Origin: Thuidium tamariscinum
Taxonomy: Eukaryota > Streptophyta > Bryopsida > Hypnales > Thuidiaceae
Assembly (NCBI GenBank): GCA_947034885.2
Contig: OX344757.2
Coordinates: forward strand, 5,580,001 to 5,644,000
DNA: 64,000 bases
Direction of reading: 5' to 3'
Part shown: positions 773-51,158 of the stretch, one piece after another
Layout: the number at the start of each line of letters is the position of its first letter
How positions within the stretch are numbered: the first letter of the stretch is position 1
The notes under the pieces: generated by a model
The model's database searches: none
The model's input: the letters and a program-made list of their open reading frames with translations, nothing else
Told to the model about the DNA's origin: nothing
Translations under genes and position numbers: made by a program

Positions 773-1705
773 TTAACCCCTAAAGGACCAAACTGCGTTT
801 TTTGGCAACATAGCGATTTTTGGCAGTTCACTACGGGTGGAGTTTTTATTTTTTTTCTTTGAAATTTTCACACAACATGTGTCCGAGGAGTATCTTGAAG
901 GCCCAAAAATTTTCATAACTTTTGACTACATGGTCAAAAAGTTATTGCATGATATGTAGTTTTCATTGGTCGGCGGGCAGCCCAAAAATTTCTTATAAAA
1001 ATATTTTTATTAAAATTAAAAATTAAAAATTGATTTTCTAGATGTATATATATGCAGAAAACTTTGAATCATTCCATTTTGATTTATGAGATGAAAGTTA
1101 TGAAGAGATTTAGTTTGCGGGCAGTTATGGATTCTCTACTCTAAAATAAACTTTGGAAGCCTTTACAATTCTCAATTTTAAATATTTTTGAAAAAAAATT
1201 AAAATTTTGGATGTTGATTGTTTGTCACAACATTTCAACCATTGGGATTGGCCTTTTTTTTATTCTATAATAAAATTTTAGCAATTTAGTACATTGAATC
1301 ACTCTCTACTTCTTTCTACTTATTAATTTTTTCCTATATGTTGTACAATTCCAAATGATGCGAAATTTTTTGAGCATATAGCCAACTTGCCGTGAAAAAT
1401 GAATCCAAAGAAGCACCACCATTTTGGACATTTTTTCATAGAAATGTGACCTTGTGAAGTGCAGCTGCCCACTTTTTTGCAGGGACAAAAAAAGGGGTTT
1501 TGTCAATTCAAATGCTAATATCTTGCAATCTATACGGTGAAAATTTCTGAAGTTTTTTCCACATCTTCTTACACAAATTTACTATAAGATCTTACGATTA
1601 CATGTGTCTGAAAATGTTTTTTTTCAAAAATTTGGTGCTTGAAGTAGAAATGACAGTTTTGGTGTGTTTTTGGTGAAGACATAGTCTCTGACCTTTAGGG
1701 GTTAA
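773..1705 (+). mobile_element. TTAA family-A element, most complete copy
   Basis: TTAA (773-776) is followed by CCCCTAAAGGACC, and the right end reads GACCTTTAGGGG followed by TTAA (1702-1705). The unit is 925 bp between the two TTAA copies, with inverted termini that are near-identical over about 13 bp. TTAA target duplications with CCC... termini are the hallmark of piggyBac-type transposons; Kolobok elements also use TTAA. The interior has no transposase ORF, so it is non-autonomous. Related copies or fragments lie at 1-227, about 3631-3900, 5980-6290, 29131-30031 and 46960-47338. Confidence 0.75.
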
Positions 1706-2159
1706 CTATTAGAATCCTTTCAAGAGAAAAGTCAAAACATATGTCTTTTTCTCTATAGCTTTGGGCCTACCTCTACTAACAATCAATACACTCAAATTTT
1801 GTGAATCTCATTTTGGGTGACAATTTGATTGGAATGAGTTCAAAATGGTTTCAATTTTAATAAACACACATTTGGCCCTCAAGGGTTGAAATGCTATAGC
1901 TTCAAACAAGGCACCAGATCAAAGTGCCTCCCTCTATGTGAGCTGGGTGGAAAAAAATACACACGAGAAGACAAGAAGTGAATACCAATTGTCTTTCTAG
2001 CCTTGGTCAGTAAAGAAGGAGGATTTCAACATTAACTGAAATCAATGGATAAACCCATTGGTGGAGATTGGTCAAGTTGAAGAAAATCACTTGGGAAGTC
2101 ACTATGGGTGGAATATCTACTTGATCTCTCTCCACCTACTAAGTTCCCATGTTACTAAA
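1706..2159. other. AT-rich intergenic DNA
   Basis: No gene was recognised. A decayed TTAA-type terminus ('cctcaagggttga') is visible near 1877-1890. Confidence 0.5.
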
Positions 2160-2600
2160 ATAGAACGACCCATAAGGCAATCAACACTCCATCTCCAACC
2201 ATAGACTACATTTATTTCTACTAAGATTGGAATAGATTTCCAACCAAAACTTGGAATATATGTTTTTTTTTTCAAGGTTGGGATTGATAAATTCATACCA
2301 CATGCCCCAAACTAGTGAACAAGAAAATAGGAAGTAATGAATAAGAAAGGAGTTCTTCAATGATTGTAATTGAAAAAGTCTAGACATTAGCTATAGGTCT
2401 ACATGACTTTTGACCTTTCAAAATTCATAGTAATTTCAATTCTTGCCATAAAATTACCAATTTTTTTGCAATCCCATCATTTCTATTGTGGCACCTCTGA
2501 AGATATTTGCTTTGCCTTGCACTACACCAAATCATGTCTAGATAATACCTTAAGTGATTGGTTATGGATGGTTCTACCTTATAGTTGGATTCTTGCTTGA
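2160..2600 (-). repeat. Dispersed repeat family C
   Basis: Long similarity in reverse orientation to 7455-7681 plus 8000-8165, and to 19250-19470. Shared landmarks are 'aaattcatagtaatttca', a stretch around 'ggaacatgtg', and 'atggttctac' near one end. Termini are not defined. Short ORFs on both strands are not conserved between copies, so I read this as a non-coding transposon-derived repeat. Confidence 0.6.
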
Positions 2601-3029
2601 CCCTGTAAGAACTTTATCTGCCTGACCCACATGGAAGGAGCCCTAACTTAGCATAGAGTAAGTCTAAATAGTGCAAGAGATACTGCCTCTCCGTTGATGG
2701 TGCTCTTCAGACAAAGCAGTGTACTGAACTGTACTGTACAGTGTAATTTGCGGTGCTGCAGTGGACTTGAATGGCGGGAGCAAGCTTCTCGTGGAGAAGC
2801 AGCTCCTGCGGAGGCTCCGCCACAGTCCGGGGAGTTATGTAGAAACCTCGGATTTTTCAAAGTTTATCCGGAAGTAAGCCTACAAAGTGCATATTTAGTT
2901 GGTTGACGTCCCCCATTTTCTAATGTAATTTGGCTATTAGCCGACTTTTTCTTTTTTCATTTGGCATCTATCTTAAATTTTTAAAATGGGGCCGGGTTTT
3001 TTTGTTTTGTTGGTGAATTTGTTCTAAAT
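2601..3029. other. Intergenic DNA with a small GC-rich island
   Basis: About 2690-2870 is clearly more GC-rich than its surroundings, and short ORFs overlap on both strands. I recognise no protein. It could be a decayed gene fragment or transposon interior. Confidence 0.4.
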
Positions 3030-3245
3030 CTCCATTTTTTTCCTATTGTTTCTTTTTAAGGTATCTTTGGCATTTATTAATTATATTTTACATTTTTTTC
3101 CCTATTGTTTCTTTTTAAGGTATCTTTGACATTTACTAATTATTCTCTCCATTTTTTTTCCTATGGTCTCCTTTTAAGGTATCTTTGGCATTTATTAATT
3201 TTGCTCCCCATTTTTTTTCCTACTGTTTTCTTTTAAGGTATTTAG
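3030..3245 (+). repeat. 59-bp tandem repeat, about 3.5 copies
   Basis: The phrase 'ttttaaggtatcttt' recurs with starts at about 3061, 3120, 3179 and 3238, a period of 59 bp. Each unit also carries a T-run followed by 'cctattgttt' or a close variant. Units differ by a few substitutions, so the array is not recent. Confidence 0.85.
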
Positions 3246-3630
3246 ATTTTGAAAACTAGAAACAAAGTTTTTCTTACTATGACTTTGCAAATGCAAAGTT
3301 TATTTTCTTAAAAAAATTATAACAAAATTTTATGTATGCCACAATGTCCTCAAATTTGTTATTTGTTTTACAATTTGGCTTTGGATTCTACAAGAGATTT
3401 CAAGTATACAATTTTCTTGTTGCCCTTGCTTATCTCTATTGACAGAAAATAGGAATCTAGACATCTTTTTATAACTATTGATTCTTAGTCTATGAAATTT
3501 ATCTTCCAATCAAAGCAATTATTGAACATATTTATAAAAAAAAAATCTAATAGGAAGATTAAAAAATTCCATCACAATTGTTTGTTAAGAAAATCAAAGT
3601 CCAATCTAGGACCCTAAATTTTTGAAAGCC
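3246..3630. other. AT-rich intergenic DNA
   Basis: No gene or repeat was recognised; the sequence is AT-rich. Confidence 0.5.
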
Positions 3631-3900
3631 TTAACCCCTAAAGGCCCAAGGCCATTTTTCTGTCAAAAAACATTCAAAACTACCATTTTTATTGCACTCA
3701 TCCAAAACTAATATAAGGCCATAAGAGCCAAATTCATAGAATTTCTTAATCCCCCCATTACTTTAGATGCTTATAGACAAAGGTATGACATTACCATAGA
3801 CCAATACTCCAAATCTTCAATTTATTGTTCAAAACTAAGTATACTAATAAAATTTTCTATATTTATGTCTAAAAAATTTCCTAGAAATTCTATGCCTCAT
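3631..3900 (-). mobile_element. TTAA family-A fragment, reverse orientation
   Basis: Starts TTAACCCCTAAAGGCCCAAG at 3631, followed by 'aaaactaccattttt', the reverse complement of the right end of family A. The far boundary cannot be placed, because 3900-4344 shows no matching left end and another TTAA element begins at 4345. It is probably truncated or rearranged. Confidence 0.5.
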
Positions 3901-4344
3901 CAGCTGCTCACCGTAAAAAAAAGGCATGTAAAATGGTATTATTCCTAAATACTCCAAAGGTGGACGGTCTTATTGCCGAGAATTTTTTTTCCTACTCAGT
4001 CCATTTCCGAAAATCTCCTTTTTTTCATTCGGAACCACTTCCTACACTTTTCTATTTCATTTGGAAATTCTCAAAATCAACTGGTGAACTTGCTACTAAC
4101 TGGCGGCACTCCTTGTACATTGGGCTCCGCACAATCCAATCCTATCTGAAGGAAGTCAATTGCTACTGGAAAACACCAGTGATCTCAGAATAGATTCAAG
4201 GTTTTTAGCCAAATGTTCATTTTTGGAAGATTTTTTAAAATTTATACAAGGGGCCTGAAAAAATTAAGTAGAAAATGAGCGAAATTTAGCCAGTTTTGGA
4301 ATCACTAGAGAACATTGTCTGCCGGCAGCACCGCATCAGTGTTA

Positions 4345-4573
4345 TTAACCCCTAAACGACGAGCCGGTGGCCGTGGAATTGAGGAATTTTGATACCGTGG
4401 GAATCATTGGATCAAAAAAATCTAAAAACACACGTTGGAAGTCAAAGCACTGTAGAAGATCTTCCTTTTCCACCCCTAATTCCAAGGATGAATGATTGCA
4501 ATTCTGTCCTACATAGAAAGATTCCTTGAAGTTCATCGACCAGAAAATGGCTTGGGCGTCGTTTAAGGGTTAA
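4345..4573 (+). mobile_element. TTAA MITE family M1, copy 1 (229 bp)
   Basis: TTAA at 4345-4348 is followed by CCCCTAAACGACG, and the right end is CGTCGTTTAAGGG followed by TTAA (4570-4573). The interior is shared with copies at 4655-4884 (inverted) and 8218-8431, including 'ggaagtcaaagcactgtag' and 'cacccctaattccaaggatg'. It has no coding capacity. The termini and TTAA duplication suggest mobilisation by a piggyBac-like (or Kolobok-like) transposase. Confidence 0.85.
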
Positions 4574-4654
4574 GATAAGAAGATCCTCCCAGAGAGTCTC
4601 CTATTCATACTACCATTCAATCCCCATCAGGTTTGGTTTTTTTCATTTATATTT

Positions 4655-4884
4655 TTCACCCCTAAATGATGCAAAGGCCATATTCTAGTCTATGAATAGG
4701 AGAGAATCTTTCTGTATAGGATAGAAATACAATTATTCATTCTCCAAATTAGGGGTGGAAAGGGAAGATTTTCTACACAACTTTGACATCCAACAAGAGT
4801 TTTTGAATTTTTTGTAACCTAATGATTCCCACGGTATCAAAATTCAGGATTTTTATGGCCACCAACTCATCGTTTAGGGGTTAA
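4655..4884 (-). mobile_element. TTAA MITE family M1, copy 2, inverted (230 bp)
   Basis: The reverse complement starts TTAACCCCTAAACGATGAG and follows copy 1 over its full length. The other end reads TTCA rather than TTAA at 4655-4658, a decayed duplication. It lies 81 bp from copy 1 in opposite orientation, so the two make a ~540-bp imperfect inverted repeat. Confidence 0.85.
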
Positions 4885-5894
4885 GGCAATTAGGGTACAT
4901 TTGCACATACTGTTAGTAAAAATTTAGGTGTTATAACAGGGGGCATGTTTTGACTGAATGTCCCTATAGAGCCTCTTTCGGGGGTAGGGATGGGATGCAG
5001 ACAAATCAAAGGGCTGCTCCGCAGCTCTATAAGGACCCACCAATCTACTTCTAATTTTGGTTTAAATTTGATTTTTCTAAAAAAATAGAAGAGAATGCAA
5101 TAGCACACAAGATTTTGAATAAGAAAATTGAAGCAATGATGAGGATTCTGTGTCATGTATTTATGTGAGTCTTATAGCCAATCTTGTATTAAAGGAGAGG
5201 AGAGAAACTTTTTATATTGGTGGAGTAGTGGTAGGTGGAACAAACCATGTAGGATATGTGAATTAGGACAAAAAGAGCTCCTCTATTCATGGTTATGTGG
5301 AAATACAAGAATTGTGATAAAAGTCAAATTTTAGACCTCATTTAGACATAGTAAACTATAATTTTTTCAAAAAAATTTGGAGAATCAAGTACATTTTTAA
5401 TTCTAAAAATCCATTTGAGATTTCAATACTCCTAAAAGTTATAGACAAATTTCAAAGGAGGTGTTTGAAAATGTCCGCAAAAAATGTCCTTTGCACACAC
5501 ACACACCTCTAAAATATGCCAAGAACTCTTATATGAGGCTTCAAAATCTCAAGTGGATTTTTAGAGATAAATGTTAGCTTGCTTCTCCCACTTCTTTTAG
5601 TTCTATTTTTTTAAAAGAAGCTATTATAAGTACATGCCCAAATGAAGTCTAAAATTCAACTTTGAGCACAATTCTTGTGTTTCTAGTTATATCTCAAATT
5701 CTTAAGAACTTTAAATCAATATTTCACCATTTTTGAAACAACATGACAAACACAAAGTAGTCACTTAAGGTTGTCTTAGCAATGTCACAAGTTATATTGA
5801 ATCAATGTTGTGAAAGCAAAGGTATTGTGTCAATAATTCAAATATGGTGGTATAGGAATATTGAATCCACAATTATTCAAAGGTATTGTTTCTA
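4885..5894. other. AT-rich intergenic DNA
   Basis: No gene was recognised. A short (CA)n run lies near 5498-5508. Confidence 0.5.
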
Positions 5895-16162: not shown

Positions 16163-18244
16163 TCATACGAAGGGAGTTTGGGTAACAGTGCGCCAGGATG
16201 GACGATTCACTGGTGGCGCAGCCTCAAACTGGAAGTGCACAGCAAGGACTAGGAGCGCCGAGCAAAAGCTGACCCCGATCTCCCACCACGGTACGACAAC
16301 CCTCTCGAAGAAGCCGTAAGAATTCAGGTAGGGATCATACCAGGCGAAGATCGGCACGAGCTGAAACTGCTTGGCGACGCGGAAGGCGAACGGCAGAGCC
16401 TGCAGGAAAGGCAGGCCGGCGTAGAACCACGCGCTCAACGGGCGCCCTTGGACCTCCCACCTCCAGTTTCCCAGCACCTGTGGCACCAGGAACAAGCTCA
16501 CCATCATTCCCGTCACATTGTTCATAAATGATCCCCACAGTGCCTCCCAGGATATCGGTGTCACACTGCGAGGAGCGCCAGTCACCCCTATGTCGCCCAA
16601 GGAATCCGGAAACCCTAACAATCCGACGATGACGCAAAAGATTATAAGAGTAGCGAGCACCAGCGGCCCGTCGCTAGGCGGATCCTTGGCGCCAGGCCGT
16701 CCCCTGCGCACTTTCAACTGCATGATCCTCCGCCTGTCGCCGATTTTGAGGATGATTAACATGTACATGAAGAGGGCCGCCGTTGTCATGAACTCGTAGG
16801 ACACATACATAACCCACGCCGAGGTTTCGTAGAAGTTCAAATCCGCCGCGGAGCCGAAATGGGCTAACAACTCATCCCTGTATCCTCTCATTTGGAATGC
16901 CTGGAAAGCGGGCATCTTGGAGAGATGGTGGATGAGCTGAATGCCCAGCATGCCCATAGACACAAACGGCAGCGCTTCCTCGTTGTTCCTGCCATGATTG
17001 ATCTGCATCCCAACGGAGACGAGTCCTAGAACTAGTAGCAAAACCCAACCGGCGGTTTTGACTCGCCGGTGGCTGTCGATTGAAAAATCCTTCGGACTAT
17101 TCGGAAAGAAAATAGTTCGTTCCACGGTGTCGAAGTAGAGAGGATCATCGTTATCGCTCTTACTGCGAAGCTCAAATTTCAGGACCCTCTGCGAGTTCCA
17201 GCGAGGGTTCACCGGCGGGTAATGCAGCGTGACGGCCACGGCGCAGTCTTCTGAGCTCGAATTCAAATTCTGGAGATGCTTCTTGCGATCCCTAATACGG
17301 GATCGTGCAATTTTTGGTAGATCCCCTGATGATACCTCTACTGCTCCTCCTTGGCTATGTGGTATATGTACATCTTCCGTGCACCCTTCCAAGTGCATTT
17401 TGCCAGTGACCGGATAATAGACGCCCTCGGCGAGAATCTCCAAGCCTAGAACGCGAATTCGGACGAAGACATCGAAGGAACGGCTACCCTGAAAGTGATT
17501 GTCATGAATCGGATAATGCCACTGTCGGCAGGATTCCCCGTAGTATCCGCCCGTGTAGAAGAATTTGCCACTGCCGTTCACCAAGCACGAATCCACAGCT
17601 ACGACTTGGAGCTCTTCGATGGCGACCGACGTATCCCAATCCATGACCGCGAGATGGTCCCAGTTGCATCGATCCTTCGATGGGGGAAAACTCGGAAATC
17701 TGTCACCTCTGTAGTTGTTTTGCGGAGACCGACTAGCTGCAGCCGCAGCTTCCGCCCTGGCTATGGCGATTCGGGTCTCATCGTGAGCGAAGAAGTATTT
17801 TTGCCATCGCCCAAACGGACTCTGGACCTTGAAGTCGCAGTCATCCTTCGAGTCTGGAAACTTTGTTGGTAATTCCGGATTGCTTGACGAAAGATGCGTT
17901 GCTACGTCACCTCTGTTGTTGTCTTGTGGTGGACTAGCTGCTTCCTCTGTTGGGGTCTCATTGTGGGAGTCGGAGTGCTCCCACCACGACCACCAAGACG
18001 GCAAGCGATCGGAGACAGCATTGTGCGCTTGTGTCTGGAGAGATTTGACTTGCGCAATATATTCCGGCACGGCCTGTTCCGCGCGCTCGCGGTCAGCATA
18101 CTGCGCTATTACCTGCAGTCCGGGGAGGAGATCTGCAACGTAGTCTCGCACATGTCGGGCGCTACACAGGTCAGGATTCGACAATGCAATAACGTGAAGA
18201 ACAAGCACCCAAAGCTTCAAATCGCAAACCCTCATGAAATTCAT
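16163..18244 (-). CDS. DUF2921 membrane protein (FLY1/TUL1-like, no RING)
   Basis: A single uninterrupted 693-aa reading frame. An N-terminal signal peptide (about residues 8-29, hydrophobic, ending near 'LCSAR') is followed by a lumenal or extracellular region of ~370 aa. This region holds cysteines and the DUF2921 landmarks 'GVYYPVTGKMHLEGC' (275-288), 'CAVAVTLHYPPVNP' (334-347) and 'RSKSDNDDPLYFD' (360-372). About seven hydrophobic segments follow, roughly at 398-415, 424-442, 475-500, 526-546, 570-592, 605-622 and 650-672. In Arabidopsis the relatives FLYING SAUCER 1/2 add a C-terminal RING and act as endomembrane E3 ligases controlling pectin methylesterification. Other DUF2921 proteins lack the RING, as here, so ligase activity should not be assumed. 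The intronless structure contrasts with the other genes in the window. Residues 80-130 are low-complexity and probably disordered. Confidence 0.82.
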   Translation of the reverse strand: MNFMRVCDLKLWVLVLHVIALSNPDLCSARHVRDYVADLLPGLQVIAQYADRERAEQAVPEYIAQVKSLQTQAHNAVSDRLPSWWSWWEHSDSHNETPTEEAASPPQDNNRGDVATHLSSSNPELPTKFPDSKDDCDFKVQSPFGRWQKYFFAHDETRIAIARAEAAAAASRSPQNNYRGDRFPSFPPSKDRCNWDHLAVMDWDTSVAIEELQVVAVDSCLVNGSGKFFYTGGYYGESCRQWHYPIHDNHFQGSRSFDVFVRIRVLGLEILAEGVYYPVTGKMHLEGCTEDVHIPHSQGGAVEVSSGDLPKIARSRIRDRKKHLQNLNSSSEDCAVAVTLHYPPVNPRWNSQRVLKFELRSKSDNDDPLYFDTVERTIFFPNSPKDFSIDSHRRVKTAGWVLLLVLGLVSVGMQINHGRNNEEALPFVSMGMLGIQLIHHLSKMPAFQAFQMRGYRDELLAHFGSAADLNFYETSAWVMYVSYEFMTTAALFMYMLIILKIGDRRRIMQLKVRRGRPGAKDPPSDGPLVLATLIIFCVIVGLLGFPDSLGDIGVTGAPRSVTPISWEALWGSFMNNVTGMMVSLFLVPQVLGNWRWEVQGRPLSAWFYAGLPFLQALPFAFRVAKQFQLVPIFAWYDPYLNSYGFFERVVVPWWEIGVSFCSALLVLAVHFQFEAAPPVNRPSWRTVTQTPFV

Positions 18245-19470: not shown

Positions 19471-19787
19471 GTAACACAATTAGTGTTTTTTGTGGACTTC
19501 CTTGTTCTAAAACAAAGATGGCTTCCAAATTATTTATTGCACCAATTTTCTGGAGAAATTTGAAGTTAGGAGGGCAAATTCATTTGGTGACAATGTTGAA
19601 TTGAGAGGCAAATATTTGGCTTCAAAATCTATTTTAAGCATTGCAACAAACAAAAGTAGGCAACAATTTTTTCCCCTAAGAAACTATTGCAAGTGCAAGA
19701 ACTATAAGCTTCTCTGTAGTCTAGGTTTTGTCTAAATCCCACAAAACCCAGGACTATAGTATAGGAGTTCAAATCTAGAGGAATGAT
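19471..19787. other. AT-rich intergenic DNA
   Basis: Nothing recognised. Confidence 0.4.
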
Positions 19788-21653
19788 CAAATAGTCTAAC
19801 GGCTAAAGTCACTTGTAATTGGAAATGGAATAGGAAATACACATTAATAACACTTAAAATTCTAACAACTAGTATTCACTCTTATTCCTAAGTATACAAA
19901 TTTGTTGGCTAGTCTTTAATAATGCTATAGATGCATGAGTGCAGTCCTAGTTTTAGATTAGTGTGTGGCTCAATTTCTATAAACAATTAGTCGTGTAGAC
20001 CAACAATTTGTCATGCATGATATAGACTTAATGCAATTTAAATATAATATTATATATAACAACAATTGAATAACACATGGTTCATTAATTACTGGTAATT
20101 GTCTTTACCAAACAAATTGTTGTTGTTACTACTTAGCTATCCAAATTACTAATTAGGATGCACAAGGAAATAGTCCCTGTTCTATCTAAAAACAATTTAT
20201 CACTATCTAAATGTAAGGCATGAGTGTGTAATGCGAGCTCTTTATTTATCTGCACAACTTCACAACCATTGGTTAAAGTATCCCATCAAAATATTATTTA
20301 CGATTAGTCTTCTAATTTCCAATTCACAACAAGTGGTTGGAATTTAACCTTAACAAGGCCAAACACCAAACACTAAGTTGAAAACAATTTGTTTTATATA
20401 CAATCTCATATAAATACCAAATCTTCCTTCTCAACAACCATATCTAACAAACTTAACTCAACAATTTGTTCATACAATTCTAACCAATAATTAATTCTTT
20501 ACAAATTTCCTTTTTAACAACAAATGGTTTATCAAAGTATTATTTTCTAAATTATTAATCTGTATATCAAACCTATAATAATCAACAATAAATACAACTT
20601 TCAACAATTTGTTCAAAATCTCTGGTTACCTATAGAATACCCAGCCAAACAGTTCTAACTAATTATTTACAAAAATAATATTTGTCAACAACTAGTCTGA
20701 GCAACTAACATGCAATGATTAATTGAATAAAAAAATTCCAAAACAAATGGTTAGTATAAATTCAAATAACTAAACCATTCATTTTACAATTTGTTTGCGG
20801 CTATAAAAACACAAGCTCTATAATTAACCAATGGACTTTAAATAACTTGTATACTATACAACTGGTCTCAAAGCCATCACAACAATTAATCTGTAATTAC
20901 TTCCAATGTTAAAACCTTTATTTTCTAACAATTTCCCACAAATTGACTAATTGTAGTTCACAAAATAAAACTGAAATTTTACATAACAACCCAAATTAAT
21001 TATCTTCCCAACTAGTTGTTGATGCAGCTTACTCCAATCAAGCTCCACACAAACTAGGAACCACAACAATTAGTCAATTTCATACAAAACAATCGATTGA
21101 CATAAGCTTTTATAACACAAATTGTTTTGTATATTAATTAACAATATCCAGGACAATTAGTTTTAAATAACACAATAACACACAATTTGTTTAGGTCTTG
21201 GAGTTAACCACATCCATTATACCAAAACAATTAATCATAACCATAAGTACAATTAGTGGCATAAACATAATATGTTGCAATTCAATTTCGTATATTAGTT
21301 ATTAACCTCCAAAACAAATAGTTTCCATTTAATGTAGTAATGCAGAATTTGTTCCTATTTAAAGATTAATATCATTTATAATATTCTCATTGAATTGGAC
21401 AATTGTTAAATGACTTTATAAGAGATCATATCAATGAAATTTCCAAAACAACACAGATTCAACATGAAATGTTCCCAATTTGTTCACCTTAGTCAAATAT
21501 TTCCATTGATATAACTACTAGTTGATTAGAATTTGGTTCCAAATTAATCAATCGTAACATTCTACTTTGACTATTTGTAATCAATGAGTTTTCAATATCA
21601 ATTTAATTAACCTTATATGACTTCAAAATATAACCAATAGTTCCACCATATTA

Positions 21654-21878
21654 TCAATAGAGATTTATAAAACAAGTAATAATCAAAGAGCTCACAAAAA
21701 TTGCTTGTGGCCTGTTCTCACCAAGAAAGCTTAACCAATTGTTAGATCTTTTGTTGTCTCTGCTAAGGGTCCTCTTCCGCAGCATCTCCATTTTTACTGC
21801 GACTATTTGTTGGTTGCCATTGCATCCATCTTCTTTCCCCAACAATTCTCCATTCACACACACACAAACTGACTCCAC
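21654..21878 (-). CDS. Possible small ORF (74 aa), unrecognised
   Basis: This short stretch inside the CAANTNGT array is more GC-rich than its surroundings. The reverse-strand frame begins 'MESVCVCVNGELLGKEDG' and has a charged middle and a hydrophobic C-terminal end. No domain is recognised and no splice context is evident. It may be a decayed exon or chance. Confidence 0.15.
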   Translation of the reverse strand: MESVCVCVNGELLGKEDGCNGNQQIVAVKMEMLRKRTLSRDNKRSNNWLSFLGENRPQAIFVSSLIITCFINLY

Positions 21879-22215
21879 TCCTTAAATTAGTAAATTCAAC
21901 ATTTCAGGACAAATCACATTCACAAATGAAAATGTGATTTGTTGGTACTCCTTACAATATCCCCAGATTCTATAACAAATCTCTTGTGGAATCACACATA
22001 TTCCTAGGCAAACCATTAAAACTATATTCTCCAATTCATACACCGGATAGACAAAGGTATTTAAACAATTTGTTCAATACATCAAAAAAACAATAATCCA
22101 ATCAATGTAAAGTAACATGCACAAAGTAAATCAACAACTTATTTACACACCTAAGCACACAAATACAATTGGTCACCCAAACATACACAATCAAGCACCA
22201 AATTTCCACAAAATT

Positions 22216-22318
22216 CAATCACTGGATACACAACAAAACAAATTGTACACGCCTCCACCCCAAGTCCAATCACTGGATACACACACAAAGACAAACAATT
22301 TGTAAAATACACTTATAT
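22216..22318 (+). repeat. Two-copy ~51-bp direct repeat
   Basis: 'caatcactggatacac' occurs at about 22216 and again at 22267, each followed by a CA-rich stretch and then a CAANTNGT octamer. This shows local duplication within the motif array. Confidence 0.7.
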
Positions 22319-22739
22319 TAAAACTTGAAGGAGTTCATCATTATAGGACTCAAGAACAATTGATCACCGGAAAGAAATTCGAGAAAACCGAGAGAGTAGG
22401 GGAAAGAACAACGAATTGTAAGACTATATGTTGGAAGAGAGGAGAGGAGAAACCGACTGAACTACCAGCTGACTAATTGTCTGCCGATCCAAGACAAATA
22501 GTTCATGTAGTAACTACTAATTATCATTTACTTAATTAATAGAAAAACTATAACTATTGGTCTATCTTCTCACTTTAATTAACCAAAATTGAGAGTTTAC
22601 TAATAGTTTTCAATAGTAAAAGACAAATGGTAAAATTCAAAAATTACAAGATGACTACATTCTCAAACTTCAAACTATAGAATTGCCAATCAAAGTCAAT
22701 GATACTAAAACTTGCAAGTCACAAACTACAACAATTTGT

Positions 22740-23429
22740 CAATTGTTGTGGATAATTCATAAATAACATGACTAGCATGCAAATGAAATATAGAAAAAAG
22801 AACAAAATATGTTGGAAACAAAAATCAAAGAAATTTAGTGAGTTTACAAAATAGCTATATTCAAAACTCAATAATTGAATGGTTATTAACGAATGATATT
22901 TGAAGTCCCACAAGAAAAATTGGTGAACTCAACCTTCTCACATTAAAAGCAAACTAGTACCAATAATTTAAATTTAGAAGGGAAGTAGGTAAAAGGAGCA
23001 ACTCAAATGTATATCGAGAAATGTGAAGTATTCATAAAAAGTAGCGTCAACAACTTAGGTGAAAGCAAAATCTCACTCTTGCATTTGGCGACAAGAGCCT
23101 TACATTTGGTTGATAGTTGGTTCCAACCCTCAAATGGCTAGTAAATTTCCGGCAATAAAAAATTAAAATTATTCATTTATTTCCTATTGAATAAAGAATC
23201 CCACCTCATATTGAAAATTGGCTTTTTTTCACTAGAAAAAAAATTATTGAGCACAATGCAATTGTAGACAACACTGTGGCATTCAATTGATGTTTACTAC
23301 TCCTCACAATGTCATAAATTTATAAAGGAGTAATATACAATACAATAATAATGGTATTTATTGTTGGCAACACTATTTATGAAGCAGAACACTAAATGTC
23401 AACAATTTTGTCAATGTTACCAACACTAA
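22740..23429. other. AT-rich intergenic DNA
   Basis: No gene was seen. Near 23,395-23,438 the phrase 'cactaaatgtcaaca' occurs twice, just before the MITE at 23439. Confidence 0.5.
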
Positions 23430-23679
23430 ATGTCAACAGATTGGGGTGAATTAGCCCCCTCGCTCAGCTACTCCTAGTAATTCCAAAGGTGCAAGTAAAA
23501 CAAAAAGCCCTCTATTTTATTCTTGACTAATTTACCCTTAAATACTTCTCCTATCTAATTTGGGACTTTTGATTGCAAATATGAATTCAGAATTTACCAA
23601 AAAAATTATTTGCAAAAAAAAAATTGTATTTTTCCAAGTAACCAAGTGAGGGGATTAGTTCACCCCGACCATGTCAACA
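23430..23679. mobile_element. Mutator-like MITE (232 bp) with 9-bp TSD
   Basis: The 9-bp direct repeat ATGTCAACA flanks the unit (23430-23438 and 23671-23679). The unit at 23439-23670 starts GATTGGGGTGAATTAGCCCC, and its reverse complement starts GGTCGGGGTGAACTAATCCC; similarity continues for about 30 bp. A 9-bp duplication is typical of Mutator-like elements. There is no ORF, so it is non-autonomous. One caution is that ATGTCAACA also occurs once more upstream. Confidence 0.75.
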
Positions 23680-35000: not shown

Positions 35001-38000
35001 ATCAATCAAGGAAAAGCACCAACCTCGATATGGAATCGCCCATCAAGAAGAGGTTCACACCTGCGCGTAGAGCACAGATTAGGCTCAAACCTCTGAGAAA
35101 GAAGCAGGTTATCCCGAGAGGGCTAGACGCCTGAATCCTTTTTTTAATCTTGCACATTTTCGCTTATATCTTCGTAGGAATACGTCATTTACCTCAATTC
35201 CATCAAAATGGTCAGAAAGGAATCTTATCTTTTGAGATTCAAGTATTACTTCGGATAAACAAGAAGCTATCTGGACAAAACATTGCCCCAAAGCACTCTG
35301 TTCATCCAGAATATGTAATTAAGTCACCAGAATCAATGAATTTCACGGGTTGGTATTAACAAGTAAAATTGAACAAAAGAAAACCCCGAATGACCCCCTC
35401 AACTCTCCCTAGAATAAACGTGAGACTCAATGTGGGCCTCTTACTCCTTAAGACGTTAATTCAACCGATGAACGACAATAAATATTAACTCACTCAGTAA
35501 TTTCGACTTCGCATGCAACTTCCGCCAAAGAGCCTGACTCCTCAATACGCACCTGGCAACCAGATGTACTTGTCAACAACATTGCTCACGAAGCCCAGTG
35601 CAACCATGTCTCGCGCCTCCAAAAATAGACTTGCGGTCATTAAATACTTGCTCGTAAAGCATTTCAGATGCTCTAGCTTATCAAAGGGAAATAAAATTCT
35701 TATTCCACTGCATCAGTGTAACATAGGGTGTACTCACCATTCCCATACGATGATTACCTTCAACAACACGCCGTATCTGCAATCTCAACAATAAATTTAG
35801 GTGTAAGGCACATCCTGTTGTTTGTCCTCACAATGAGTCACTTATATATATGGTAGACACAAGGAGAATACAAATAAATGCATAGATACAGAAAGGGATT
35901 CTTAATTCTCTAGGAGTTGACTTCATGTCAATTCATTCTATAATTTGAAATAACCAGCTACAATAGCGAGGGTTTTATTGAAGGATGCCGATAAGTGGGA
36001 GGCTCCAAACAAATCAGATGATCCACTTGAACAAAAAGAATACCCAAATCACTGACACCAGAAGATCTTAAAAAAATGTTTGCTCCAAGTAATGGGACGA
36101 CAAAACGTTACGTGGAGTAATTGCTTAGCCCATGAGAGAGTCCGAACCAAAAAAACAACACCAACATACCATAAGTCTATAGCGTGGTTCGAAGATGTTC
36201 AAAATCATGTGCTCCATAGGCAGAACCACATCCATCACAAACAGAGGCAAGGTCTCTCCGCCAGCTTGCGTGACAACATCCATTTCAGCTTTCCTCTCTT
36301 CAAACTCTTCGGGAAAGTTGCGTTGGATCAAGTTATTTAGTGTTACACTGGATAGAATACCAAAACGGTTATTAGAAAAATATTCTTGTTTCTGATATTC
36401 AATTGAGCAAATTTCTCAAGAAATTTCGTGGCAATATCAAACACAATTATACCCAGTAGTAAAATTTGATTCACAAATTCCATTGAAGAAACTAAATAAT
36501 AAAATATACCTGACTGGGTAGGTCTTGGGGCTCACAAAAATCACTGTTCTGCAAATTGGGCACTTGTTACCTGGAATCTCAGAGTGGTTAGACTCTATCT
36601 TAAAAAAAATTCCACCAGATAAAACTAATAGACTCAGCCAGTATGAGAAAATCACGAACTTGATACCTCTTACAAAACACATAACATTTTTGAGTGGTAG
36701 CGCTAACTTTAGGGAACATTGCCAATTAAGAGTTTTAAGAATAAAATCAGGTCAAAATTGTGAAAATCAAGCAAATCAAGACTGTGACATACTCTCACAC
36801 ATGAAGGCAATGGTTCATTAGCTTGAGGAGAGCTCTTTCTTGTTTCAATTGAGCTCAACATTGCGAAATAAGGGTAAAGGATTCCTGCCAATTTAGAGGG
36901 TGCTCAACGGGGGTCTCTAGAATTAGCAATACAATGAGTCAAAATTCAAAATTCGTAAGCTCCTCTGAACATTATAATTTAGAAAGCGACTTCTAAATCC
37001 TCAAAACTAAAATACCAGTGAGGTACAAAAGTCTAACCGTGATCAAGGGCCTGAAGGAGACAGCCACGACAGAATGAGTGACCACAGGGTGTGGTGATGG
37101 GTTGATGTAACAATTTCAAGCACAAGGTGCAGTCCAGATCATCTGAACGCTCCAACTTCCGTCGTTTCTTATCACTATGCTCTGCACCCTCTATTAAGGT
37201 TTTCACTGAGCGCAATCCATCTTGAAGGGCTTCACTGCAAAGCACACAGCAGAACATTAACACCGACAGCCCAATTCGGCCTAGCACTTTCGAGTAGGTC
37301 ATGAGGGATCTGTCTTTTGTTCAACATTATTCTTTATTTTTTGACCAAAACAGGCAATCTTCACTGATTCTTGTGATGCAAAATCGGACTCCATCTGAAT
37401 TACATTTTCCACGATACGACTAGTCAAATTGGTCATTTTAAATCCAAACAAGTCTGTTGTTTTCTGAGGCGGCCACAGAATGATTGCCAGAACACTTGGA
37501 TTGGCCTTTCTCGACTTCATTGTGCTCGTTCATAGGTTTCAGATATTTCCGTAAGATAAATACCTCACAGAAAGGAAAGAGCTTAAACTTAAGGGATGAG
37601 TCTGGCACAGACACAAGGTAGTCCACCAGTAGAAAATGCATCCCCCAAAACTTAGCCACATTAAAGTTGGCAGGGTTTACATTAGAAATCAATTTAATGA
37701 CGTTACAATTAGTACGGTTTATCGTGGCTACATTTCTAGAGTACCTCTAGGAGGATATGTGCTAGGGATCCCTCACTGATGGAGCCAATAATATTGAAGA
37801 ACAGAAGCAGCATAATAAGCCATTGACGTTATAAAAATTGAAACGATGATCTTACTTGGTGGGATCGATTTCCAATCCAGACAAGTAGGTTTCCATCGCG
37901 GCGTCATATTGCTCTAGCTGAAAGACACCGCCACCACATACATAGTCATCAATAAACAATGAACAAGGTTCAAACAAATTAGACTATTAGACTATTCAGG

Positions 38001-40740
38001 AATTTTAAATACCATATACAAGGTCTTCCTCATGTTTCTTGGAGAGATCTCCTTAAATCACAATGATCAGTAGAGACTTCCTTAAGATACCTACGGAGAT
38101 TCTGTACGATCACTTGACTATAAGAAAGTTTTCTTTGTGATGCTATTGAAAAATTTCTAGAACAGGCTGAAACCCGCATTGAAGTCATTGCCATGGCACA
38201 TTGCCTGTGTGTACAGCCCGTCATGCATATTCAACTTTTCAGAGACTATAGACGTCTTCTAACAGGGCTACACACGCAATCTAATGTAAAATCTAATTGG
38301 GGAGTGTTTCAGCCTCTTTGCAAGATTCTGAATTGTCTGACATGATACTCAAGTTGGGAACTACTGCGCCAAATGACAGTCCAAAGATTGGCATGGCGCA
38401 AACTGACTTACTGCCCAGTTCGAAGACCTTAAGATAAATTTAAGCTAATACTTTGTGAAAACAAATATATCCAGACTTCTAAAGTTTACCCACTTTTACA
38501 GAAATAGTCAATTTTCCAGCTTTGTGTGGCCCTGCCTTTAAATAGATTGAGCTTTCAAAAAAACAAAGTCCATCTGGAATACCGTCTGGAACAAATAATT
38601 CACTCTAGAGTAATGTAAAAAGGTTGAATGAGAAGTAGTACCAAGGTTTGAGCAGTAGCCTTGCGCACATATGCCTTGGGATGGTTACTCCGAAGCTTCA
38701 CCACCTTCTCTGCATCCCTCAATGCTAACTGAAACGAAATGAGAAAAATCCAAAACGTCCCTTCAACATGACTCTTCCCTTCTTCCATATACAGAGTTAC
38801 TCTTCTGAAGCAGGACGTGAGACATTAGAGTAGCCACTACAAGTACAAAGAAAAATTTCGGTAATTCCAGAATACTACACGTAAATGTACATAGCACTAC
38901 CTGCCCCAGTGACATAGGATCCAACTCCAGAATAGCAGACTCTTCTGAAACTCGTGCTGGAATCGATCGTATTAATTTACTCAACCTGCATGAAAGCAGG
39001 ATACCACGAGTGGGTATCAACTGAAACCAACAGCAACTCTTTTAATCTGAGAACCGTTTAATGGTTCTGAAACAATGAAAAATACTAGCCCTCGGTCTGC
39101 AAACAAAATTTAGATGTATTACAACATGTGACTCATGATATTGGTGATGTTTGCTCAAAAACAGGAAGTGTGAGATAAAATAAGAAGAAAGAATGATCCA
39201 AGTTGCAAAAGCGTTTTAAATCTTTCTCACATCAATATGTATGCATTGGACTTCGAATAGTCATAATAAATACATATTGTATTTTTAAGAGTTGGATTTT
39301 GACATGATTGGATAAAATTGAGATTTTTGAATATACGGTCAACAAATAGACGGAAATTGATTCCAAGAAGTTCAAAACTTTCCCCCCAATAGTACATTAT
39401 TTAAAATTGGATAATCTGGAATCTGAAATTTTGGACTGTTTTGATCTAGGTTTTAAAATGTCTAATTGCGTAGATAACATGTATGCAATTGAAAGAAACA
39501 GATGTTGAACACGGTAAGAGGGAGAACGTACCTGCAGTAAGCAACGCAGCGGTTACTATACAACAAGCCATGGTCTACAGAGCTTCCCAGAAGAGCTTTC
39601 GAGTAACACGAAATGGCCTGCAACCAGACAGGGTGATAAAAAATTACATCTTCCACTATGAGCATGACACCCCAAATTCATTGAAATTGTAATGCAAAAC
39701 CATAATGCCAATGCAGGATTTTGAAGCTAATGTGGCAGAATCTTAAAAGCTGAGAGGAGTATTAGAAACCATAATGCTAGCTGAACTTACAACCCACTAA
39801 AGAATCTAATTTAAAAGAACTGCAATCAATGAGATTCAAATGCAGGAACATATCCTCAGTCAAATTGCAATATTGTAATTTTGAAATCCAAAACTTTCAC
39901 TGTTACAATTTTCTTACGTCCTTACAATCAATGGCTAAAATCACTTGTAAAAAGGAGGTATTGAAGCACCAAGCTCTGGTACTATAACCCTTGGTGCCTC
40001 AAGACCTTCTTTCTACTACATAGGTGAAATTTAAGGGTAGGGCAAACACGTGATCTTCAAGATCGTACAAAAGGAGTTCGCCCATTAGATAAGCGAAACA
40101 AAATTTGAAAGGATCATATAATGCTTGTAAGTTAAACTGACATTACGTCCAGCAATAGCAATCAAGCCACACTTATCAAAAATTTAGTACCAACCTCACT
40201 CTCCCACATACTATTTTAAAAATCATGTCCGTCGTTGCAATTTCGTAGTGCATACACAAATCCACTAACCTCTTTGAACCTTGAGTTCCGGAAATCACGG
40301 TTCCCTTTCCTCAGAAACGTAGTGGCTTCGTCCACGGGAGGAGGAAGACGAGCCTCTCCTTCCTCGCCATCTAAACTCTGCACACCACAAGATCCAAAAA
40401 AATAATTCAAAACAGTCGCACTACCACACAAATTCCAACATGAAACCCCCAAATCTTCATTGGAGAGGAATCAAAGTCCACTCCCCTAAACCCAAATTGA
40501 ACCTTACATACTTATTAGAAGTTTGAATAGGTCATTAGGAAGACTCATCTCTAATTTTATTAGACATGTGATCAACACTTGAAACATTCTTCATTCATTC
40601 CGATGTACAAATTAGTCCTATCTGAATCATTAATCTTTCACAACAAGATCTCATTTCAAAACCATGAATCCTTAGAATAAGCTTGTGAAACATCTTACGA
40701 CAACAGTTATATCCTCAACATCATCCAGCTCGTTTGCCAT
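32012..40740 (-). CDS. TPR-RING-LON protein (LONRF-type, probable E3 ubiquitin ligase)
   Basis: Eighteen exons join in frame on the reverse strand with GT-AG introns: 40740-40699, 40377-40270, 39617-39532, 38985-38901, 38728-38642, 37917-37856, 37234-37038, 36570-36510, 36347-36170, 35776-35738, 35552-35494, 35060-35024, 34610-34561, 34134-34065, 33736-33661, 33224-33148, 32889-32821 and 32077-32012. Total 1,449 nt, 482 aa plus stop. Order: short acidic start ([14 protein letters not shown]); TPR repeats about 30-155 ('[10 protein letters not shown]', '[10 protein letters not shown]', '[20 protein letters not shown]'); C3HC4 RING with C192, C195, C207, H209, C212, C215, C226 and C229; LON substrate-binding domain from about 275 ('[15 protein letters not shown]', 'IFEPRYRLM', '[10 protein letters not shown]', '[12 protein letters not shown]') to the C-terminus ('PERFSFW'). 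It has no protease domain, so it is not a Lon protease. The animal family with this order is LONRF, RING ligases. Intron 11 carries an M2-type transposon. Confidence 0.93.
35109..35335. mobile_element. M2-type MITE inside an intron of the TPR-RING-LON gene
   Basis: Similar to 26578-26806 over most of its length: 'cttgcacattttcgct' against 'tttgcaccttttcgct', then shared 'ttcaagtatta' and 'ctctgttcatc'. The terminal TTAA motifs are decayed, so it is older. It lies between exons 35024-35060 and 35494-35552 and does not touch either splice site. Confidence 0.6.
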
Positions 40741-43984: not shown

Positions 43985-44882
43985 GGTGCTTCTTGAGAAC
44001 TTCAAATACATATCGTAGTGGTGCTATAGTTTCTGATCGAAGCTTTGAGAACTTCAAATACGTAGGGGTGCTAGTTCTTAGAGGTTTGAGAACTTCAAAC
44101 ATTTTCTGTGGTACTAGTTTTTGGAGCTTTGAGAACTTCAGATACGTAGTGCTGCTAGGTTTTCCAGCTTTGCGAACAGCAAAAACGTAATGGGTCTTCA
44201 GTTCTTAGAGCTTTGAGAGCTTCCAACAGGTAGCGGTGCTAGGTTTCGGAGCTTTGAGGACTTCAAACACATTGTGAAGGTAATTGTTGGAGCTCGGAGA
44301 ATTTCAAAGACTTCATAACTCAGAGCTAGTTCTTAGAGGTTTCAAAGCCTCAAACGAACTTCAAATACAGTGGTGCTAGGTTTTCCAGCGTTGCGAACAT
44401 CAAAAATTAACGTAGTGGGTCTTCAGTTTTTCGAGCTTCGAGAACTTCCAACAGGTAGTGGTGCTAGTTTTTGGAGCTTTGAGGACTTCAGACACATCGT
44501 GATGGTAGTTTTTGAAGCTCGGAGAACTTCAAAGATCGACGTCATAACTTACAGCTAGTTTTTAGAGATTCATACATTTACTAAGTTATGGTGCTAGTTT
44601 TTGGAACTTTGAGAACTTCAAATACGCAGTGGTGCCAGGTTTTCCAACTCTGCGATCATCAAAAACGTAGAGGGTCTTCAGTTTTTAGAGCTTTGAGAAC
44701 TTCCAACAGGTAATGGTGCTAGTTTCCGGAGTTTTGAGGACTTCAAACACATCGTGGTGGTAGCTTTTGGAGCTCGAAGCACTTCAAAGCTAGATGTCAT
44801 AACTTAGAGCTAATTTTCAGAGGTTTCAGAACTTCAAACTCATTGTTTTGGAAGCTTTGAGAACTTCAAAACATAGTGCTGC
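43985..44882 (+). repeat. Minisatellite with higher-order structure (~45-bp units in ~240-bp blocks)
   Basis: About 20 degenerate units contain 'ttgagaacttcaaa' followed by 'tggtgctagtttttggagc' or variants. A distinctive unit type ('ggttttccagctttgcgaac' and variants) recurs near 44150, 44378 and 44638, so blocks of about five units repeat every 230-260 bp. Frames through it encode 'RTSK'-type repeats but contain stops. Confidence 0.85.
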
Positions 44883-51010: not shown

Positions 51011-51158
51011 CACTACAAGAAAATGGGGGTATAAATGACTTGTCCACAATGACTGTACCAACAACAATGACTACAAAATGACTATTTTGTAGTCATTGTT
51101 GTTGGTACAGTCATTGTCATTGTGAACAATTCATTTATACCCCCATTTTCTTGTAGTG
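51011..51158. mobile_element. CACTA-type foldback MITE (148 bp) with 3-bp TSD
   Basis: Starts CACTACAAGAAAATGGGGGT and ends with the inverse, ...CTTGTAGTG. The two halves are almost perfectly complementary throughout, forming a long hairpin. TGA flanks it on both sides (51008-51010 and 51159-51161). CACTACAAGAAAA is the classic En/Spm terminus and 3-bp duplications are diagnostic of CACTA elements. Such hairpins can be transcribed into small RNAs. Confidence 0.9.

Follow-up and report, generated by a model that had tools for sequence, protein, structure and literature searches.

What kind of DNA is a block of about 3 kb in which one short motif recurs on both strands, and what has kept the motif there? 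The block lies in a window of 64,000 nucleotides (the whole stretch of DNA that was analysed), where a sequence-only reading had noticed many plus-strand matches to the octamer CAANTNGT at positions 19788-22739 and had proposed an array under selection by a sequence-specific DNA-binding protein, belonging either to the non-coding part of a larger mobile element or to a host regulatory array.

The motif in the block

The 29 plus-strand matches that had been counted in the block are exact, and the minus strand holds 21 more (pattern count). Markov models built from the block itself gave, in 1000 runs per order, means (plus/minus) of 1.5/1.5 at order 1, 3.6/3.2 at order 2 and 5.4/4.0 at order 3, with maxima over the three orders together of 15 plus and 11 minus, so that the density is above that of composition-matched DNA, while the modelled plus-strand means of 1.5 to 5.4 show that the original chance expectation (fewer than one or two) had been set a little too low. 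In the 64-kb window as a whole there are 107 matches on both strands, as opposed to 52 +/- 7 in shuffles. Of these, 50 start within 19788-22739 and 57 elsewhere, where only two scattered matches had been noticed, but these 57 are near the shuffled density.

Motif discovery by EM over 19701-22800 returned the palindrome AACHANTDGTT with about 64 weighted sites, at a log-likelihood of 278 (250 starts) versus 91-142 in six AT-rich control blocks (60 starts each). Its strict core is the palindrome ACNANTNGT, which occurs 39 times in the block versus 19 times in 59.3 kb taken from the rest of the window; for the block, a third-order model expects 4.3 and reached at most 11 in 500 runs. De novo discovery thus recovers the motif in a corrected form: the minus strand is almost as rich in CAANTNGT because the real motif is palindromic, and the asymmetric octamer is one reading of the palindrome. 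The array was rightly described as non-repetitive and irregular, since Tandem Repeats Finder reported no tandem array in the block and no fixed period was found in the spacing of the motif, which rules out a satellite. A low variance of site spacing hinted at regularity, and is accounted for by an exclusion of 15-20 bp, despite which the nearest ancestral pair of sites starts 12 bp apart. For helical phasing of the sites there was a weak signal, on which we make no claim.

Elsewhere in the window, a frame matching DUF2921 (Pfam), a plant family, lies at 16163-18244 on the minus strand, and by it we judge the window to be plant DNA. Positions 23430-23679 contain a 232-bp inverted-repeat element (23439-23670) with ends GATTGGGGTGAA.../...TTCACCCCGACC and a 9-bp duplication ATGTCAACA, by its marks a Mutator-type MITE, and positions 51011-51158 a 148-bp CACTA-type MITE (CACTACAAGAAAATGGGGG...TTTTCTTGTAGTG) with TGA on both sides. 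Tandem Repeats Finder reported a degenerate array of units of about 41 bp (AGCTTTGAGAACTTCAAA...) at 44041-44822, and gene pieces occupy 36128-40470 on the minus strand, one frame with a RING finger (by eye 37036-37320) and another that is LON-like by eye only. Rfam, applied to the whole window at gathering scores, gave no match.

Copies and borders of the element

We searched the window's own genome (363 Mb in 19 contigs). With 19700-22800 as query, 65 matches were obtained (best 40 of 315 candidates scored), of which 32 begin at query position 15 or 16 and seven end at 2960, and the element therefore corresponds to window positions 19715-22659; a search for terminal inverted repeats and target-site duplications within the window alone had yielded nothing convincing, so the ends came from the genome copies. 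Thus the dense block that had been noticed is real, but its true borders differ from those first given, and the final match (22731/22732) falls in the flank just outside. Likewise, the suggestion of a non-coding part of a larger element was correct as to a mobile element, whereas the block itself is a precisely bordered insertion at this place. We are almost certain that it represents a single insertion of a plant mobile element, dispersed through the genome and non-coding, with the following features:

19715-22659, no strand: non-coding mobile element, 2945 bp, 29.9% G+C, C over G on the plus strand (borders from genome matches, letter counts)
19710-19714, no strand: target-site duplication, left copy, TTCTC (5 bp)
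22660-22664, no strand: target-site duplication, right copy, TTCTC (5 bp)
19715-19721, plus: left terminus TGTAGTC, matching the right terminus in inverted orientation
22653-22659, plus: right terminus GACTACA
19717-19756, plus: imperfect palindrome beside the left terminus, which could form a 14-bp hairpin as single strand (DNA fold)
19715-20214, no strand: left 500 bp, where conservation outside the motifs is highest in the element, with 6-14% changed in each 100 bp
19865-22631, no strand: 38 copies of the palindromic site ACNANTNGT forming an array, with their first letters at 19865, 19983, 20003, 20112, 20265, 20300, 20329, 20384, 20461, 20520, 20604, 20688, 20743, 20786, 20858, 20946, 21011, 21066, 21117, 21153, 21182, 21249, 21314, 21514, 21570, 21633, 21734, 21802, 22065, 22165, 22238, 22295, 22411, 22472, 22494, 22553, 22599 and 22623
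20192-22521, no strand: 11 positions with a site in at least seven other copies that is absent here, 20192, 20551, 20658, 20774, 20882, 21227, 21344, 21700, 22008, 22134 and 22513

The first site lies 150 bp in from the left end, and the last stops 28 bp short of the right end. Beyond the left 500 bp, bins of the element are 13-25% changed, and the final 45-bp bin 10%. The hairpin at the left end (-8.5 kcal/mol, z -3.7) was equalled by none of 200 shuffles, and DNA folding gave no hairpin at the right end (z 0.6).

Used as queries, the ends confirm the borders: 39 of 40 matches to the window's left end start at base 1 (best 40 of 210 candidates) and 29 of 40 matches to its right end run to the last base (best 40 of 67), while the left end of a second copy (L036) gave 40 of 40 from base 1 (best 40 of 236), the right part of a third (L034) was matched in 40 of 40 (best 40 of 78), and a diverged left end (L012) added at least 39 further loci. 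The 363-Mb genome holds at least 105 distinct left-end matches, a lower bound compiled by hand from several searches and including a few that do not start from base 1. In 36 copies both ends could be paired by position, 26 of them spanning 2.8-3.3 kb and 10 being longer, some of the right ends being approximate. Among the 28 copies with both flanks read, target duplications are exact in 18 (L094, with AAAAT twice, is counted in this set of 28) and agree in four of five letters in nine; the sole failure is L053, which has an altered end. An empty site is available as well: L044 sits inside another repeat, and its joined flanks align gap-free across the junction to the copy of that repeat in L040, which is unoccupied and has the 5 bp once; two L010 copies of the empty repeat also align to these flanks, with small gaps, one of them near the junction. 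All 30 stretches examined (window copy included) contain 23-45 sites, as opposed to 0-5 of the reversed pattern, so that other loci of like density, which the sequence-only reading had suggested looking for, do exist and have their ends in common.

Several observations on the surroundings of the copies may be added. The flanks of L040, L010, L027, L036 and L044 belong to another dispersed repeat, in or beside which several copies sit. C2:28418158 and C2:28454764 have a left flank in common, and in L090 (G000:C5:19511603) the left flank finishes with TTTAGACTACA, which looks like a second left end joined head to head. Pairs of CAANTNGT are in excess genome-wide (4085/4095 versus 944/866), an excess that is probably larger than this family alone explains, because the window copy has just 3 and 1 such pairs and other repeats are in the list, such as CAACTAGT...CAACTAGT near C1:891862 and CAATTGGTAG...CCAATTGGT near C1:2241168 and C1:2460224.

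Neither a binding protein nor an autonomous partner was found in the copies read, and the transposase-related frames inside copies belong to nested elements. Among the 10 of 36 end-paired copies that exceed 3.3 kb, a nested element was identified in two. In L062 (G000:C3:22469300-22476100) a pogo-type insertion at about 2960-5840, bounded by CACTAAAAATG ends and flanked by TA on either side, contains a 430-aa DDE_1 frame, which was rejected as the partner on this account (by eye); a DUF4216 frame in L104 (G000:C5:7041600-7047600) was rejected likewise, as it lies within a nested CACTA element at about 885-3719. L063 and L064 carry further insertions. Stop-to-stop frames in 30 element stretches reach 173 aa at most, and the longest frames of the stretches have a median of 94. 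A diverged subfamily (subfamily C: L012, L105-L107) has the left end of the window element and few sites (3 in 6 kb in both L105 and L106, 9 in 6 kb in L107, 14 in 10 kb in L012); its array is absent or decayed, and the subfamily could be older, or could have lacked an array from the start.

Conservation of the sites among copies

For an estimate of constraint, we used 33 other copies, locally aligned to the window copy, and left out L044 and L022 (further labels for the copies L039 and L064) as well as L012 and L105-L107, which are diverged. These 33 represent at most 32 independent insertions, since L021, which has a right flank in common with L019, is probably its segmental duplicate. At the six fixed motif letters of the 38 sites we observed 238 changes, where a base-matched background predicts 849 (ratio 0.28); random sets of 9-mers (n=2000) gave 1.00 +/- 0.12 (sd), with a minimum of 0.59. 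The ratio is below 1 in each of the 33 copies (0.08-0.78, median 0.27). In contrast, the three N letters changed 433 times versus 393 expected, and letters neighbouring the sites at 0.163 versus a background of 0.159. Lone half-sites are barely or not conserved (0.86 and 0.95) and one-mismatch sites without ancestry have a ratio of 1.00, whereas sites that were lost in the window copy and kept in others are conserved in those others (0.31). When five other palindromic patterns of equal shape were treated in the same way, one, with only 4 sites, gave 0.48 and the rest 0.73-1.25. The column majority defines 50 sites, 38 of which are kept in the window copy.

In columns with at least 80% agreement, core changes private to one copy, most of which postdate insertion, stand at 0.76 (0.61-0.92) of background and shared changes at 0.55. 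Since shared changes are cut more than private ones, selection acted mainly during propagation, inserted copies then decaying with little restraint. Thus the array is one of about 50 ancestral palindromic sites, and the pattern of substitutions shows that selection preserved their fixed letters, chiefly in those lineages that multiplied. Guarding of this kind marks sites needed for propagation, not a host function exercised at every locus. That the sites are bound by a protein and were selected during propagation of the element is, in our view, very probable, and the selection by a DNA-binding protein that had been proposed for the block is consistent with the core ratio. A private-change ratio below 1 is, as a caveat, not fully explained by this model, and the small number of sites in subfamily C, like the 0.48 of the other palindromic pattern with 4 sites, also tells against too simple an account.

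One may also consider explanations other than selection for propagation. The scarcity of changes at motif letters could be mutational, for instance through protein cover or low methylation, and both the reduction of private changes and the rate of C-to-T change at core positions in CHH context (0.069 versus 0.147 elsewhere) go in that direction. We consider this explanation improbable: conservation extends to the A and T letters of the core and is strongest at the two inner ones, N letters within the very same sites change freely, and shared changes are reduced more than private ones in the filtered columns, the overall ratio without that filter being lower still. A host regulatory array, as had also been suggested, or a satellite kept for its function at this locus, might be imagined because the element starts about 1.5 kb upstream of the first codon of the DUF2921 frame. 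This would leave dispersed copies with target duplications and by the dozen, the mild reduction of private changes and the lack of a period in the motif spacing all to be accounted for, and we regard it as extremely unlikely.

Class of the element, binding and known systems

While a mobile element selected for its array is thus the preferred reading, its class can be argued in two directions, each falling a little short of an even chance. It may be a solo LTR, i.e. a 3-kb LTR whose internal part was lost by recombination and whose palindromes form an LTR enhancer array like the Sirevirus motif. The TG..CA ends fitting TGTNR (a pattern given in the sections of PMC2836005 drawn on here), together with the 5-bp duplication, indicate retroviral-type integration and hence this reading, to which the fairly constant length and a terminal inversion of just 7 bp are also suited, and palindromic motif arrays are known in Sirevirus LTRs (PMC2829016, in part). 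Moreover, in the diverged L106 antisense copia-type remnants (gag, pre-integrase/integrase, SH3) directly follow the part that it has in common with L012. These slightly raise the odds of a solo LTR, although they are not seen in L105, L107 or L012 and, the right end of L106 not having been located, may be internal or a separate insertion. What speaks against a solo LTR is the absence of pairs, although two copies are 96% alike: none of the 105 left-end matches listed has a paired neighbour (best 40 candidates scored per search), and the nearest, at 36.6 kb, has its left flank in common and is thus a segmental duplicate. In plant genomes, solo LTRs outnumber full elements by about 3 to 1 on average (PMC7251063, in part, where the regression is 2.69 + 0.00114x), a ratio at which such an absence is very improbable; were 3% of the elements full, no pair among 105 would have a chance of 0.04 if copies are independent. 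In the flanks read, no primer site or polypurine tract was recognised by eye, the left flanks of 32 sequences share just other repeats or element parts and the right flanks of five share nothing, and a search for the terminus joined to a Met primer site (that primer only, at one spacing) gave 10 loose matches versus 8 for a reversed control, and no exact one.

The alternative, of somewhat similar probability, is a non-autonomous DNA transposon mobilised by an integrase-like transposase (a Ginger-like mechanism), its sites being bound by the transposase or an accessory protein. Here the single units among at least 105 left-end matches are as expected, as are a short terminal inverted repeat, an array of sites and a hairpin at the left end, and the TGT..ACA ends with a 5-bp duplication resemble TDD-4/TDD-5 of the Ginger2 group (parts of PMC2836005 and PMC10045372). 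Against it, the inverted repeat has 7 bp as opposed to the 40-270 bp or so given for Ginger elements in the former source. No coding partner was found in the copies read, and the sites occur throughout the body rather than subterminally. We know of no plant DNA transposon with a 5-bp duplication. We rate the two readings nearly equal, giving the solo LTR a slight lead on account of the L106 remnants.

Whichever class applies, the observations as a whole are probably best explained by a dispersed, gene-less element with a selected palindromic array that is bound in trans. Free letters at positions 3, 5 and 7 and the lack of conservation of lone half-sites point to a symmetric dimer, and we infer that each site would be bound by a homodimer touching two ACNA half-sites; spread over the length of the element at about one per 57 bp, the sites suggest many dimers side by side. 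The protein would be supplied in trans, the densely occupied array might keep the element accessible, through activation or by resisting silencing, and the accessible element could then be mobilised by an integrase-type recombinase. Transposase sites are usually near element ends, whereas the sites of the array lie along the whole element, which favours a role in an open or active state; activation or anti-silencing is accordingly our tentative choice, at less than even odds, with two somewhat less likely alternatives, namely that binding assembles a transposition complex or that the array is an LTR-type enhancer. Speculatively, and with low probability, the family could be an undescribed class of plant mobile element, gene-less, with TGT..ACA ends and 5-bp duplications, moving as DNA by an integrase-type recombinase and covered along its whole length, at about 50 fixed palindromes, by a dimeric protein, the coat being selected for propagation and possibly serving as a VANC-independent anti-silencing device. 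A literature search for the exact letters of the motif returned no paper, which does not show that the family is unpublished.

A few mobile elements with arrays of short motifs are known already. In the present family, related copies from a single genome provide a footprint at base resolution, with six letters fixed, three free, stable positions and half-sites that are not conserved alone, in an element that combines integrase-type ends with no established retrotransposon or transposase partner. Such a footprint makes the hunt for the binding protein direct, and lets one test how gene-less elements stay active against silencing.

Of the systems with which the array may be compared, CACTA (En/Spm) elements carry subterminal arrays of many short sites with irregular spacing, and in this the present array is like them; the parallel, drawn already by the sequence-only reading, does not extend to membership, since the element is without CACTA ends, has a 5-bp rather than a 3-bp duplication and is filled with sites along its whole length. 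Ginger elements are described, in the passages of PMC2836005 consulted, as having TGTNR ends, 4-5-bp duplications and inverted repeats of about 40-270 bp; our element agrees with Ginger2/TDD in its ends and in the size of its duplication, and differs in the lack of long inverted repeats (7 bp only) and of a transposase in the copies read. The LTR motifs of Sireviruses (Ty1/copia) are palindromes with a CGG-CCG core in all but Tnd-1 and form CpG islands, as far as the relevant part of PMC2829016 goes. In both cases a plant element with LTR-type ends carries a high-copy palindromic motif in its non-coding part, whereas here the motif is AC-A-T-GT, CpG o/e is 0.29 and no second LTR was seen. The VANDAL parallel also fails as membership, the sites here not being arranged in tandem repeats. 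No Pfam match to VANA, VANB or VANC was obtained in 63 + 10 window frames and none was recognised in the longer copies, a search that could miss autonomous relatives. VANC targets are short non-palindromic motifs (YAGTATTAY; AGTTGTCC/AGTTGTAC) in fast-changing tandem repeats, according to parts of PMC5735166 and PMC10398659. What the two have in common is many short motifs in non-coding parts of a plant element, those of VANDAL being bound by an element-encoded protein; the present element, in contrast, has palindromes at about 50 stable positions, outside any tandem repeat, together with different ends and a 5-bp duplication.
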